Assembly (NCBI GenBank): GCA_947364235.1
Contig: CANARY010000002.1
Location: 248,001 to 312,000, forward strand
Reading direction: 5' to 3'
DNA from: an uncultured Candidatus Melainabacteria bacterium
Lineage (GTDB): Bacteria; Cyanobacteriota; Vampirovibrionia; Gastranaerophilales; Gastranaerophilaceae
DNA length: 64,000 bases
The notes under the pieces are model-generated. The model did no database searches and was not told where the DNA came from. It saw nothing but the letters and a program-made list of their open reading frames with translations. A program made the position numbers and the translations under genes. Below, piece after piece: positions 9,618 through 45,185 of this stretch (position 1 is the stretch's first letter; the number at the start of each line of letters is the position of its first letter).

Positions 9618-11912
9618 TTAGACTTGCTTTAAAGCATTAATTACGGCGTCAACAAGCCCTTTAAAGCTTACCATATATACGATTTTATCGCCTTTTGCTT
9701 TTATATCATCGTGTTGTTTAACAACTGTATTTGAAGGATATTGCCCGCTTTGTATTCTGCTGCTGCAAAACTCTGCTCTGCCGCCTTTGAATCTATCTTT
9801 GTGTGCTGACCAGTTGTTTGTGTAGCAGAATTGTTTTTGAACAATTTTGATGGCTGCATCAAGCCTGCTTCTGTCAATACCTTTGCTTGCCATTGCGTTT
9901 CCGATTAGATTTAATAAATCATTAATACGCGAGATTACTATTCCGGAATCTTTGAATTGATTCCAGTCGCCGTCTGTGCCACTTTTAGTATGTAATTGGA
10001 TAACGGCGTTGTTGTTATAAAGGTCAGCAAAGCTTGCGCTTGTAACTTGTGTACCATTATTTACACCAGGACAGCCGTATACTTCAAGATTACTAGAAGC
10101 TCCGCCCCAAGACTCATCTCCAATAGAGTTTACGAGTCCTGTGCCAGTAATTTCGCATTTAAGCGGTATTGTTTTTGTGCCTATTTGTACGCCGTCTGCC
10201 ATTACGGCAACTTTAACAGACATTTGTCCTTCTGCTGAACCGGCAGTGATGTTCAATTCTCCATAAATAGAACATGTTGCGCTGCAGCCTGATGCGCTTA
10301 ATAATGAATATGTTATATTAGGTGCAGCGTGTCCTTTGGTATCAACTTCAGCTGATATATTGAATTTTTGTGAATATCCCGGGTACATAACAAGATTATC
10401 TTCCGGAAGTCCGTTCCAGTTAGAAACTTCAAATTTTGTTGCATCTCCAATTTCTAGAACATTTATCTTAAGTTCTTCCATTTTATTTTCAATTTCGCCG
10501 GTTGTCATTTTGTTAATAACAGATGCATAGTTATCTCCGAATATTTCATTTACTAGTTCTGCTAGTTTTGCGCCTTTAGCAGATACAGCTTTGCAGTAAG
10601 AAACAGCTGCTTCTTTCATTTTTGCTGCATCTTGGTTTTCTTTAGCAGAAGCTGCCAGAGCATCATACATTGCGTTAAGTTCTTCTATCGGCATACCTCC
10701 AAAGCCGTTTGGATAATAATCAGCAATGTTTTTCTTGACTTCTGAAATAATCCAATTGATGAGTTTTTGTGTATCAAGCGTTCCGTTAGAGTCGAATTCT
10801 CCGAACTGAGCTTTTGACATTGCAGAGCTTACCAGCTCATCATAAGCAGGAATTTCTCCTTTCATCAATCCGCTTATTCTCACAGCAAAAGACTCTCCAA
10901 TCGCAGTATTTATTGCAGATTTTAGTTCTTCGCTGTCAAAAACTTTTTGTGTATCAATAGCTTTTAATACTCCTTTATACTGTTTAGAAGTTTTAAATTG
11001 GCTTATTGTATCTTCGTTTACTGATACAAAGTTACCGAACTTAAGTGTTTCGATATATCCTTTTGCAGCTTCGGAGAACATGCTTTTATATTCTTCAAAA
11101 TCAGTTTCTGAAGCTAAGGCTTTTTCAAGTTTTGACTGGATTATTGATTTTTGTAAGTCATTTAAAGGGCTGTTTGCAGTTGGAGTGTAGCCAAACTCTC
11201 CTAAATCTTCAGCGCTGTCTTCGTTGAGTCCTGCTGTTGCCATGTAAGCATCGATTATTCCTTGAACAGTTTGTTCAATCTCGCCATCGTCAGCTTCTGC
11301 TGGTAAATTTTGAATGTAACGATTAATCATTCCTTGAAGAGTTTTATCATCACCATAAGTGTATCCGTATTCTCTTGCAATATCTCCCATAACTTCTGCA
11401 AGATATTCTTGTGCACAATAATCAGCTGTCGCTTTAGCTTTGATTGATGCAGCTTTTTCATCAAGATAAGCCTGGAGCTGTTCCGGTTTGCCGCCGTTTT
11501 TGATATAAGGTTCAACTAAAGCGCCAAGTCCTTGCGATACTGATTTCTTCCAGTTTGCTCCATCTCCAACAACTGAAGGCGCTGTAAGAGAAGCTGTATA
11601 CTGGTTTAGAATTTCATACATCTGAATTCTATTATTCATTGCAGTAATTTCTTTTTTATCAAGAGCGTTTTTGTTCTTAAGCCTTGTCCCGCTAACTTTG
11701 CCGCTCTGGTTTGTATCAATAGTTTTCCAGAAATTATTGATAAGGTCATTTTTGCCGGCATCTGTTGTTTCACCGTCCCACTCAAAGTTTTCTTCCATAA
11801 AATCTCTGAATTCAGACTTGATGACTGTACCGTCGCCATTCTTGTCAGCTTCGTTAACCCAGTCTCCTTGTTTTGCGAGAAATGCGTATACTCTTGAGAT
11901 GTCTGTAGACAT
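9618..11912 (-). CDS. Large EF-hand protein of the predicted sigma-28 regulon, 764 aa
   Basis: I do not recognise a named family. The N-terminus has a clear calcium-binding EF-hand loop at residues 23-34 (D23, N25, D27, T29, E34) and a second, degenerate one at 66-77 whose last position is Arg instead of Glu. Residues about 90-500 are mostly helical. Around 515-600 lies a beta-rich, Ig-like stretch (YPGYSQKFNISAEV, then SVKVAVMADGVQIG), and the last 130 residues form another, mixed region with three Cys. There is no signal peptide. The promoter looks like that of the unknown gene at 43998 and matches the flagellar sigma-28 type, so it may be a flagellum-linked or flagellum-exported protein. 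The start has a strong AAGGAG. Confidence 0.8.
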   Translation of the reverse strand: MSTDISRVYAFLAKQGDWVNEADKNGDGTVIKSEFRDFMEENFEWDGETTDAGKNDLINNFWKTIDTNQSGKVSGTRLKNKNALDKKEITAMNNRIQMYEILNQYTASLTAPSVVGDGANWKKSVSQGLGALVEPYIKNGGKPEQLQAYLDEKAASIKAKATADYCAQEYLAEVMGDIAREYGYTYGDDKTLQGMINRYIQNLPAEADDGEIEQTVQGIIDAYMATAGLNEDSAEDLGEFGYTPTANSPLNDLQKSIIQSKLEKALASETDFEEYKSMFSEAAKGYIETLKFGNFVSVNEDTISQFKTSKQYKGVLKAIDTQKVFDSEELKSAINTAIGESFAVRISGLMKGEIPAYDELVSSAMSKAQFGEFDSNGTLDTQKLINWIISEVKKNIADYYPNGFGGMPIEELNAMYDALAASAKENQDAAKMKEAAVSYCKAVSAKGAKLAELVNEIFGDNYASVINKMTTGEIENKMEELKINVLEIGDATKFEVSNWNGLPEDNLVMYPGYSQKFNISAEVDTKGHAAPNITYSLLSASGCSATCSIYGELNITAGSAEGQMSVKVAVMADGVQIGTKTIPLKCEITGTGLVNSIGDESWGGASSNLEVYGCPGVNNGTQVTSASFADLYNNNAVIQLHTKSGTDGDWNQFKDSGIVISRINDLLNLIGNAMASKGIDRSRLDAAIKIVQKQFCYTNNWSAHKDRFKGGRAEFCSSRIQSGQYPSNTVVKQHDDIKAKGDKIVYMVSFKGLVDAVINALKQV

Positions 11913-11950: not shown

Positions 11951-12001
11951 ATTACGGCATTTTTTAGGAAAACTTTAGGATAAGAAAGCAAATTGTTACA
12001 A
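11951..12001 (-). promoter_or_regulatory. Sigma-28 (FliA)-type promoter with conserved upstream element
   Basis: Read on the minus strand this contains TAAAGTTT (complement of 11970-11977), an 11-base spacer and GCCGTAAT (complement of 11951-11958), close to the sigma-28 consensus TAAAGTTT-N11-GCCGATAA. Further upstream lies TTGTAACAA (complement of 11993-12001). The region upstream of the gene at 43998 has the same three elements at the same distances. The -10 lies about 40 bases before the start of the EF-hand gene. Confidence 0.72.
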
Positions 12002-12012
12002 ATCTTTATATT

Positions 12013-42276: not shown

Positions 42277-43769
42277 TGGAAAGATTTTTATACAACTCAA
42301 ATAAAGGTGAATATACTCTCTTAATGGCTTATCCTGCTGTTGAAGAGTTTGCGCTTGCTTCGCTTGGATATCTGTGGCTTTATAAAATTGCTGATATGAC
42401 AGAAGGAATAAATGCTGTAAGATGTTCGACTGACAATATTGATAAATTTAAACGACCGCAGGCAGCTGCTTTTTCAATGTCTTTCGATTTTGATTTTATG
42501 GGAGTTTTTGAAATTTTAGAAAAACTTGGAATCCCGTTCTATGCAAAAGATAGAGATGATGACCAGCCTTTAATATTTGCCGGCGGTCCGGTTATTACTA
42601 CAAATCCGCGTCCTTATGAAGCATTTTTTGATTTTATGATGATTGGTGATGGTGAAGAAAGTTTTAAAAAAGTTCTCGATATATTAAAAAATAATTGCAA
42701 GAAAGATGCGATAACGCTTTTAGCAGATGTTGAAGGAATCTATATTCCTAATATGCCCGTCAAAAAATCAACAGTTCTTTTAGATGAAGTTATTTATACT
42801 CCTATTTTAAGTGATAATAGCTATTTTAAAGATACTTTTATAATTGAAGTTTCACGCGGATGTATGAATCGATGTGCATTTTGTACAGCATCATATATTA
42901 ATTTGCCGTTTCGCAGTTATTCTTATGAAAAAATAATTGAAGCAATTGAGCTTGGGCTTAAGTATACTAATAAAATAGCACTTCTGGGCGCTCAGATAAG
43001 TGCTCACCCTCGGTTTGGCGATATTATGAAGTATTTAAACGATAAAATGGAGAACGGAATTGATATTGAGCTCGGCATATCTTCTTTAAGAACAGATTCT
43101 GTTACTCCCCAAATGGTGCAGACGCTTGTAAAAGGAGGGCAAAAACATTCTACAATTGCGATTGAAGCAGCAAGTGAAAAGCTTCGGAAATTTATTAATA
43201 AGAATTTGAAAGAAGAACAAATTCTTAATGCCGTTAAAACTGCAAGAGAAAATGGGTTAAAAGGACTGAAAATATACTCAATGATTGGTATTCCCGATGA
43301 AACACAGGAAGATATTGATGAATTTTTAAGACTCGGAAAACTGCTTAAAGATGAAAATAAAGGCTTTAATATCGAATTTTCGTTTTCTACTTTTGTGCCA
43401 AAACCGCATACTCCATTCCAATGGGCTCTAAGAGAAGATACAAAGTCTCTTGAAAAAAAACAAAAATACTTGGAAAAAGAGTTGGCAAAACTTGGTATAG
43501 CTTCAAAATTTTCAAGTGCAAAATGGGATTACTGGCAAAGCGTTCTTTCACGCGGAGGTGTGGAACTCGCACCGCTTCTAACAGAAGTTTATAAAAATGG
43601 GGGCAAAATCGGAGCTTATAAATCTGCAGTTAAATCCTTAAGTTTATCTATAAAAGAAAGTTTTGAGATGAATGAAGCGCTTCCTTGGGATATAATAGAA
43701 TTTGAACCAAGAAAAGAATTATTAAAAAATGAATATAAACGGCTTTGCATAAAAAAAACTTCTCTTTGA
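42276..43769 (+). CDS. B12-binding-type radical SAM protein
   Basis: The 497-residue enzyme has an N-terminal cobalamin-binding-like domain (residues about 1-150) and a radical SAM core with the cluster motif C196-x3-C200-x2-C203, followed by an SAM-binding region around RTDSV and the GLKIYSMIGIPDET signature. It resembles the YgiQ/TIGR03960 type of uncharacterised or MiaB-like enzymes. The substrate is unknown. I use the second start (ATG at 42276), overlapping the AI-2E stop by one base, instead of the TTG at 42273. Confidence 0.85.
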   Translation: MERFLYNSNKGEYTLLMAYPAVEEFALASLGYLWLYKIADMTEGINAVRCSTDNIDKFKRPQAAAFSMSFDFDFMGVFEILEKLGIPFYAKDRDDDQPLIFAGGPVITTNPRPYEAFFDFMMIGDGEESFKKVLDILKNNCKKDAITLLADVEGIYIPNMPVKKSTVLLDEVIYTPILSDNSYFKDTFIIEVSRGCMNRCAFCTASYINLPFRSYSYEKIIEAIELGLKYTNKIALLGAQISAHPRFGDIMKYLNDKMENGIDIELGISSLRTDSVTPQMVQTLVKGGQKHSTIAIEAASEKLRKFINKNLKEEQILNAVKTARENGLKGLKIYSMIGIPDETQEDIDEFLRLGKLLKDENKGFNIEFSFSTFVPKPHTPFQWALREDTKSLEKKQKYLEKELAKLGIASKFSSAKWDYWQSVLSRGGVELAPLLTEVYKNGGKIGAYKSAVKSLSLSIKESFEMNEALPWDIIEFEPRKELLKNEYKRLCIKKTSL

Positions 43770-43880
43770 GACGAGAAGCTGGGAAATTAGTTAGGAAGGG
43801 ATTTAGGGTTTAAATTCTTATTTTCATCTTACATATATATAAAATATATAATCTTTTGCTAATTTCAAAGTTTAGAAAAG

Positions 43881-43960
43881 TTGTTACAAATTGTAAAATT
43901 ATTAACTTTTGTAACAATATAAGCAAAAATCCTAAAGTTTTAGCCAATTGTGCCGTAATA
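43881..43960 (+). promoter_or_regulatory. Sigma-28 (FliA)-type promoter with upstream palindromic elements
   Basis: TAAAGTTT at 43933-43940 and GCCGTAAT at 43952-43959 are separated by 11 bases, as in sigma-28 promoters (TAAAGTTT-N11-GCCGATAA). TTTTGTAACAAT at 43907-43918 lies eleven bases before ATCC-TAAAGTTTT, and TTGTTACAAA at 43881-43890 is an inverted copy of it. Exactly the same -35, -10 and upstream element spacing occurs before the EF-hand gene at 11912. Confidence 0.75.
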
Positions 43961-43997: not shown

Positions 43998-45185
43998 ATG
44001 GGAATGGCAGCATCACAAGCTACATTATTAATGATAACTTCCAGGTTGCACGATGTTGAGTACAAGGCACAAAATATCGAAAACCAGAAGATTGCGCTTG
44101 CGACTCAAAAAGACGAGTTGTACCAAAACTATTGTGATGCTTTAGATGCTAAGAAGATTCAGGTTGCGTTTAATAATGGGGATGGTACAAGGAATTTTAT
44201 TGATGCCACATTCTCTACTATGTGTGCATACAATCCTGATAGATTTAAGCAATATTCTTTAAAAGATGCTAGTACTGGTAAGATTATTGTAGATTCTAAC
44301 ACTTTTGAGAATTATAAAGATTTCAACTCTGATAAATATGCATTTGCTTATGCAATGCTTGGTATGGATGCTGATTTTGGCTGGCCTGTGGAGAATGACC
44401 ATGGCAGATATACAATGGGTATGGAAGTTGGCATTGGTATTTCTAATGAAGATTATGGAGATGGAAATGCTGCGAATGGAAGCTTTAACTTATTTATGAC
44501 AGATGTTGAAAGAAAAGTTTTTGAAAATCATAGAAATGATGAAAAATTGACAAAGCCTTGGGATTTATTACAAGAAGCTTGCAATTCAGACTCAGCAACT
44601 GATGCTGACAAACAGGATGCTTTAGATAATTTTAGAAATGCTTTATATGAGAACTTTGGCTCTGAAATATATAAATATATGCGTTTGAATAAAAATGAAG
44701 TTTCAAACACTGATCCTGATGCTGCTAATGCAGAATTTAATGAAGAATATCCGGAAGAGTTTCCAAAAGGCGAGTTTAATTATTACGTCCATCTTTTTGA
44801 AGAGATTCAAGCTGCTGGTGGATGTCAGGAAATTGATCCGCAGTATGAGGCCGGTTCAGAAGGTAATGAATGGCTGAATAATATGGTTAACTCTGGTAAA
44901 GTTATTATTGATGTATATGATGAGAATAAAAAAGAATGGTCTGAAACTAGTGTTGCAACTAGTACTAACCAAAATTACCTTCAAGAAGTCCAAGACGAAG
45001 CTGACTTAAAGAAAGCTGAAGCTAAATATGAACATGAGCTTGGGATTATAAATCAAAAAGATACAAAGTTTGATAGAGATTTGAGTAAGCTTGAAACAGA
45101 GCGTAATGCAATGAAAACAGAAATGGATGCTATTAAAACTGTAAGAAATGATAATATAGAAAGAACTTTTGGTATATTTAGTTAA
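43998..45185 (+). CDS. Unknown 395-aa protein with long terminal helices, predicted sigma-28 regulon
   Basis: The product opens with MGMAASQATLLMITSRLHD, followed by a long amphipathic helix with a heptad-like pattern (to about residue 50). It ends in a coiled coil (about 325-395: EAKYEHELGIINQKDT and ERNAMKTEMDAIKTVR) and the tail ERTFGIF. The middle is acidic, with many Asn and Asp. There is no signal peptide. Helical termini and a variable middle are the plan of flagellar axial or type III exported proteins. The sigma-28-type promoter supports co-regulation with flagella. I do not recognise a named family. An AAAGGA lies 11 bases upstream. Confidence 0.75.
   Translation: MGMAASQATLLMITSRLHDVEYKAQNIENQKIALATQKDELYQNYCDALDAKKIQVAFNNGDGTRNFIDATFSTMCAYNPDRFKQYSLKDASTGKIIVDSNTFENYKDFNSDKYAFAYAMLGMDADFGWPVENDHGRYTMGMEVGIGISNEDYGDGNAANGSFNLFMTDVERKVFENHRNDEKLTKPWDLLQEACNSDSATDADKQDALDNFRNALYENFGSEIYKYMRLNKNEVSNTDPDAANAEFNEEYPEEFPKGEFNYYVHLFEEIQAAGGCQEIDPQYEAGSEGNEWLNNMVNSGKVIIDVYDENKKEWSETSVATSTNQNYLQEVQDEADLKKAEAKYEHELGIINQKDTKFDRDLSKLETERNAMKTEMDAIKTVRNDNIERTFGIFS

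Follow-up and report, generated by a model that had tools for sequence, protein, structure and literature searches.

The window analyzed here is a stretch of 64,000 nucleotides from an uncultured bacterium of the order Gastranaerophilales, a sister lineage of cyanobacteria that lacks photosynthesis, and corresponds to C2:248001-312000 of a 1.93-Mb source genome in 12 contigs. We focused on the promoter regions of two of its genes, one for a signal-peptide-less protein of 764 amino acids (9618..11912, minus strand) and one for a MGMAASQ-type protein of 395 amino acids (43998..45185, plus strand). An earlier note on this DNA had described a promoter arrangement common to both, and the two sites read letter for letter as it said: TTGTAACAA-N11-ATCCTAAAGTTTT-N10-GCCGTAATA at 12001-11950 (minus strand; site 1, before the 764-amino-acid gene) and at 43909-43960 (plus strand; site 2, before the 395-amino-acid gene). 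The downstream part is a sigma-28-like core, TAAAGTTT-N11-GCCGTAAT, at 11951..11977 (minus) and 43933..43959 (plus), respectively, recognized by its sequence, its recurrence in the genome and the promoters of homologues. The upstream part belongs to an HLR1-like (RpaB-type) box at 11995..12012 (minus) and 43898..43915 (plus), assigned by sequence, consensus and spacing.

At site 1, the box consists of the proximal half TTTGTAAC (12002-11995), a spacer (12004-12003) and a degenerate distal half, AATATAAA (12012-12005). At site 2, a degenerate distal half, ATTATTAA (43898-43905), is followed by the spacer (43906-43907) and the proximal half TTTGTAAC (43908-43915), and an extra lone half-site, TTGTAAA, lies beside the box at 43891-43897. 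Both proximal halves match WWTGTAAM perfectly; the distal halves AATATAAA and ATTATTAA carry one and two mismatches, respectively. Because the distal halves are degenerate in the window, the earlier note took TTGTAACAA for a single 9-mer. Its idea of a site for an extra activator is supported and is now assignable to RpaB/HLR1, but the element does not stand alone: TTGTAACAA forms the half nearer the promoter in a direct repeat whose period is 10 base pairs. In the window, CCTAAAGTTTT-N10-GCCGTAAT with up to three mismatches occurs exactly twice (shuffle mean, 0.02). The lone palindrome TTGTNACAA was also considered as the upstream element and was ruled out, because what is conserved is a direct repeat. 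The palindrome has eight matches in the window, a number equalled in 1 of 100 shuffles, and the matches that were looked into, the one at 43881 and those at both sites, have a promoter-like context.

The arrangement proved real and more widespread than first described. The genome-wide search that the earlier note had proposed found 16 copies of the composite, versus none of the reversed pattern. The pattern CCTAAAGTTTT-N10-GCCGTAAT, with up to three mismatches, occurs 20 times in the genome (reversed pattern, 2), and the core TAAAGTTT-N11-GCCGWWA occurs 19 times (reversed, 1). The core agrees with the known sigma-28 consensus, TAAAGTTT-N11-GCCGATAA, and both window sites bear the variant GCCGTAAT. 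The proposal of a sigma-28-type core is supported by its recurrence across the genome and by the FliA that this genome encodes. FliA was identified by TIGR02479 at 231.9 bits (cut-off, 189.6); there were eight further, weaker matches, and one match alone passed. A flagellar context of fliA was considered and rejected, as the neighboring genes are not flagellar.

The spacing between box and core was counted in sequence stretches taken around the matches of the core and box searches, and the box played no part in the core searches. Among 20 TAAAGTTT-N11-GCCG sites in these stretches, WTGTAAM starts 24 nucleotides ahead of TAAAG in 15 and 23 nucleotides ahead in 1, and a second copy lies 10 nucleotides further up (33-34 nucleotides) in 9. 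The reversed upstream sequences of the same 20 sites gave one WTGTAAM match within 90 nucleotides. With 16 of 20 genomic cores at a spacing of 24 or 23 nucleotides, the common spacing of the two window sites is no coincidence. At the core of C2:11404, the repeat is shifted 11 base pairs further upstream.

We then compared the promoters of homologous genes. Of the 58 genomes of the genus, the own genome counted, 47 have a homologue of the 764-amino-acid protein and 57 a homologue of the 395-amino-acid protein. For each protein, the 30 best loci from these 47 and 57 matching genomes were compared, own copy included, giving 60 loci (2 own and 58 homologues). The core lies upstream in 59 of the 60 (30/30 for the 764-amino-acid protein and 29/30 for the 395-amino-acid protein); the single coreless locus has the box and TAAAGTTTT, with GACG at -10. 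In 57 of the 59 core-bearing loci, the box lies at 23-25 nucleotides (28/30 and 29/29, respectively); in the remaining two, a strict repeat is found at another position of the upstream stretch. Protein identity to the two window proteins ranges from 28% to 74% across the compared loci, indicating that the promoter was kept though the coding sequence changed much. Of 29 full reading frames, 24 entered alignment A5.

The aligned homologue promoters define the box as WWTGTAAM-N2-WWTGTAAM, a tandem repeat. Its complementary strand reads KTTACAWW-N2-KTTACAWW, the 18-base-pair direct repeat HLR1, which is bound by RpaB in cyanobacteria according to PMC9241938 and PMC13421787. The match covers both halves and the 2-nucleotide spacer. 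The consensus was drawn from 57 of the 59 core-bearing promoters, chosen by the proximal half and without use of the distal half; therefore, the invariance of the proximal half is partly by construction. In the distal half, the 57 promoters have T in 100%, G in 77% (otherwise A), T in 100%, A in 68% (otherwise T), A in 100% and A in 98%, and their consensus is an HLR1 direct repeat. In the source genome, WTGTAAM-NN-WWTGTAAM occurs 48 times, versus 4 for the reversed pattern. If transcription is assumed to start 6 nucleotides after the -10 element, the box would span about -67 to -50; PMC13421787 describes cyanobacterial boxes upstream at about -66 to -45 as activating. As a separate observation, contig C5 carries the same box-like sequence at its two ends, inverted relative to each other (C5:19-50, minus, and C5:208639-208670, plus), which suggests an inverted repeat at an assembly break.

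HLR1-type repeats were counted in 192 genomes of the order, giving 4231, versus 536 for reversed patterns of the same composition; the excess is present in 191 genomes, and in one the two counts are equal. The composite, with up to one mismatch, occurs 454 times (reversed, 6) and is present in 101 of the 192 genomes. Of these composites, 239 fall in the 12 genomes of the source genus and 66 in the four g15 genomes, with few elsewhere. The box seems to be an old feature of the order, and its frequent pairing with sigma-28 cores to be confined to a few genera. Flagellin_N was matched in 74 of the 192 genomes, and both composite-dense genera have flagellin. One genome, G174 (genus g23), has 19 Flagellin_N matches, many of them in short frames of 160-191 amino acids.

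The source genome encodes three OmpR-type DNA-binding regulators. One is RpaB, which scored 354.4 bits with NCBIfam NF045944 (cut-off, 330), and the other two scored 214 and 201. The RpaB is 78-94% identical to RpaB of Candidatus Gastranaerophilales records, and its recognition-helix region, DTRVVDVHISRLRSKLE, is the same in the source genome and a Synechococcus metagenome-assembled genome. Cys59 of cyanobacterial RpaB is described as thioredoxin-reactive in PMC4361706, which also gives the numbering. Among the 33 of 35 loci read at this position (L111, L114-L147), 29 have Thr and 4 have Cys, the latter being two Gastranaerophilales and both cyanobacterial rows. The second regulator is an RpaA orthologue (263 bits to the RpaA chain 9dvt_R; next best, 148). 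Its gene (L113, C2:182.8-184 kb) stands directly before a flagellin gene (C2:183794). The third (L112) is adjoined by a kinase gene; the kinase was considered as NblS and set aside, as it fell below every NCBIfam cut-off shown, no NblS-directed search having been made. RpaA, RpaB and NblS have been reported in non-photosynthetic Melainabacteria by Di Rienzi et al. 2013 (PMC3787301), who did not settle what they do there ("may have another function"), and likewise by Soo et al.

What the computation shows directly is the composite, with its spacing and recurrence and its retention before orthologous genes, and the joint presence of an RpaB equivalog and FliA in the genome. We consider it likely that, in this Gastranaerophilales genus, RpaB activates a FliA-type promoter class through the HLR1 box. 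FliA-type RNA polymerase would recognize TAAAGTTT-N11-GCCG(ATAA/ATAT/TAAT). Phosphorylated RpaB, rather than its paralogue RpaA, would sit on the box just upstream of -35 at a fixed spacing, at about -67 to -50 relative to the putative transcription start. By analogy with cyanobacteria, where upstream placement activates, the box-bound RpaB would help the FliA-containing polymerase. Naming the upstream element as a probable RpaB/HLR1-type box is what makes the finding interesting.

The box is also found before other promoters. Among the 48 boxes of the genome, 15 have a core within 90 nucleotides, 9 are then followed by a second promoter-like type (ACTTTATA or ATTTTATA), and 24 have neither by these expressions. 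In the second type, TGAAAT lies about 32-33 nucleotides after the HLR1 start and is followed by TACTTTATATATATA (C5:83778-, C5:162032+, C6:75204+, C7:138314+, C7:165482+ and C9:10298+). The window has a divergent element of this type adjacent to site 2 (43835..43889, minus), with the half-site TTGTAAC and then TGAAATT and TATATTTTATATATATG. It is followed by a conserved small-RNA-like unit of 83 nucleotides (43751..43833, minus) with a C/U-rich stretch, a terminator-like hairpin and a T run. Across loci, the unit measures 79-91 nucleotides, contains CCCTAAATCCCTTCCTAACTAATTT, a GCTTCTC/GAGAAG hairpin and a T run, and lies behind an RpaB-type box and a promoter-like element, TGAAAT...TACTTTATATATATGTAAG. 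It stands beside homologues of the two genes in 13 further loci, and a model search added two more (L323, L338-L340, L343, L347, L350, L352, L353, L355-L358, L346 and L361 in all). In 91 sources, the model gave three clear matches, one of them the window itself, a training sequence; the weaker matches (E 0.04-0.85) are probably due to chance. A search of Rfam returned two chance-level matches only, far under the gathering scores, and no covariation was found in the hairpin, in which four of seven pairs are invariant. Elsewhere in the genome, the HLR1 repeats C5:137106+, C6:75204+ and C7:18879+ have terminator-like hairpins within about 140-155 nucleotides, with no evident gene between, and are small-RNA candidates.

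Several observations weigh against activation of a FliA-type class by RpaB. Three of the 20 cores have no box, namely C2:112948 (before a flagellin gene), C1:126456 (GAF/HD protein) and C3:119614 (57-amino-acid frame), and 33 of the 48 boxes have no core within 90 nucleotides. No composite was found at any of the five flagellin starts examined. Many flagellated genera are nearly devoid of composites (g14: 12 genomes, mean 1.4), and two genomes of genus g21, G107 and G163, have 8 and 5 composites and no Flagellin_N match. The last case suggests that such promoters may persist after the filament is lost. The earlier note had linked both genes to flagellar gene control. A sigma-28-type core and a FliA are indeed present; shared control with late flagellar genes stands as an unproven idea. 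The five flagellin starts come from a genome with 11 Flagellin_N matches. One of them (C2:113017) has a core and no box, two others an HLR1 repeat but no core, and the last two neither. With a core at one of five flagellin genes and a composite at none, the flagellar link is only partial.

We next considered which other protein could read the box. The RpaA orthologue is present, its gene lies just before a flagellin gene, and a review (PMC13421787) describes RpaA and RpaB as competing at shared promoters in Synechococcus; that RpaA could use the same sites also counts against the RpaB reading. However, both halves of the repeat and its spacing agree with the RpaB box as published, in a comparison made without any RpaA motif, and we regard binding by RpaA, or competition between RpaA and RpaB, as an unlikely but live alternative. 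The box could instead only resemble HLR1, its reader being the third OmpR-type regulator with its adjacent kinase or a protein of a different regulator family. Short direct repeats are common binding sites of OmpR-type regulators, which counts for the third regulator, and this regulator and its kinase do exist in the genome. The HLR1 match is nevertheless specific, with its 10-base-pair period, A/C closing each half and T or A opening it, which makes such a reader very improbable. That no regulator is involved, and that the element is a mere A+T-rich promoter feature (an UP-like element), seems hardly credible. The region is indeed A+T-rich (GC 35% in the examined stretches), but the proximal G is fixed, the distal position is G or A and the spacing is fixed; moreover, the repeats far outnumber the reversed patterns of the same composition (4231 vs. 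536), and the same box occurs before other promoter types.

The sigma factor raises a separate question. Another FliA-related sigma factor might read the core, as there are eight further, weaker TIGR02479 matches, the flagellin genes mostly lack the core, and two genomes have composites and no flagellin match. Nevertheless, the core fits the known sigma-28 consensus and one match alone exceeds the FliA/WhiG cut-off, so we judge this improbable and retain FliA as the likely partner of RpaB.

The marked genes mostly encode proteins of unknown function with no signal peptide by eye. The earlier note had labeled the 764-amino-acid product an EF-hand protein, a label that is weak, since all four Pfam EF-hand matches fell below the gathering score (best, 22.9 vs. 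25 bits); by eye, DKNGDGTVIKSEF looks like a canonical EF-hand loop. A weak NCBIfam match to XopAW (19.9 vs. 120 bits) was rejected. The predicted model has a mean predicted local distance difference test (pLDDT) score of 85.6 and a predicted template modelling score of 0.50. The 395-amino-acid protein has no Pfam or NCBIfam match. Its predicted model (mean pLDDT, 88.5) has long N- and C-terminal helices (2-50 and 334-394) around a globular middle; in flagellar axial proteins, terminal helices likewise surround a globular middle. A fold search with this protein gave no matches at E≤0.001. A second fold search gave generic coiled-coil matches, none significant, including a hook-filament-junction chain (Z 6.9, 97 residues, root-mean-square deviation 5.6). 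The MGMAASQ proteins have their first 44-61 and last 79-157 residues in common. Other marked genes encode MGMAASQ proteins (C2:192397 and C2:206914), a LysM protein (C3:162440), an EF-hand protein above one Pfam cut-off (C3:116125; EF-hand_1, 26.7 vs. 25.4) and several small or long proteins without a family. At C1:287337 and C2:56394, where the box precedes variant cores, the proteins begin by eye with a signal-peptide-like stretch. Flagellar-type export of the marked proteins is a guess.

In photosynthetic cyanobacteria, the RpaB box controls photosynthesis genes, and the host order comprises their dark-living gut relatives. The genome-wide conserved RpaB-type box points to a concrete candidate regulon for RpaB in Melainabacteria, and the finding bears on the role of this old light-stress regulator apart from oxygenic photosynthesis. 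We tentatively suggest that RpaB/HLR1 may have acted on genes for motility, the surface or secretion outside photosynthesis and perhaps earlier than it, and that in Gastranaerophilales the same box may drive three outputs: sigma-28-type promoters, the second type (TGAAAT...TACTTTATATATATA) and a conserved small RNA. If so, the RpaB-plus-small-RNA circuit of photosystem control has a photosystem-free counterpart. No earlier description was found in the accessible portions of the open-licence literature on Melainabacteria and RpaB or on RpaB and flagella.

The arrangement shares with the HLR1/RpaB regulon of Synechocystis PCC 6803 and Synechococcus PCC 7942 the 18-base-pair repeat, the RpaB equivalog and the upstream placement. 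It differs in that there are no photosynthesis targets here, the box is joined to a sigma-28-type core at fixed spacing, and most Gastranaerophilales RpaB rows have Thr where cyanobacterial rows have Cys59. As in the sigma-28 (FliA) promoters of flagellated bacteria, there is a TAAAGTTT-N11-GCCG core and a FliA in the genome; unlike them, the promoters frequently have the -10 variant GCCGTAAT and a response-regulator box at fixed spacing, and the targets are mostly not known flagellar parts. Finally, the RpaB-PsrR1 circuit of Synechocystis also has an RpaB-type box before a small RNA, which here is a small-RNA-like unit known from sequence. The sequence, promoter type and neighboring genes differ between the two, and the likeness lies in the circuit only.
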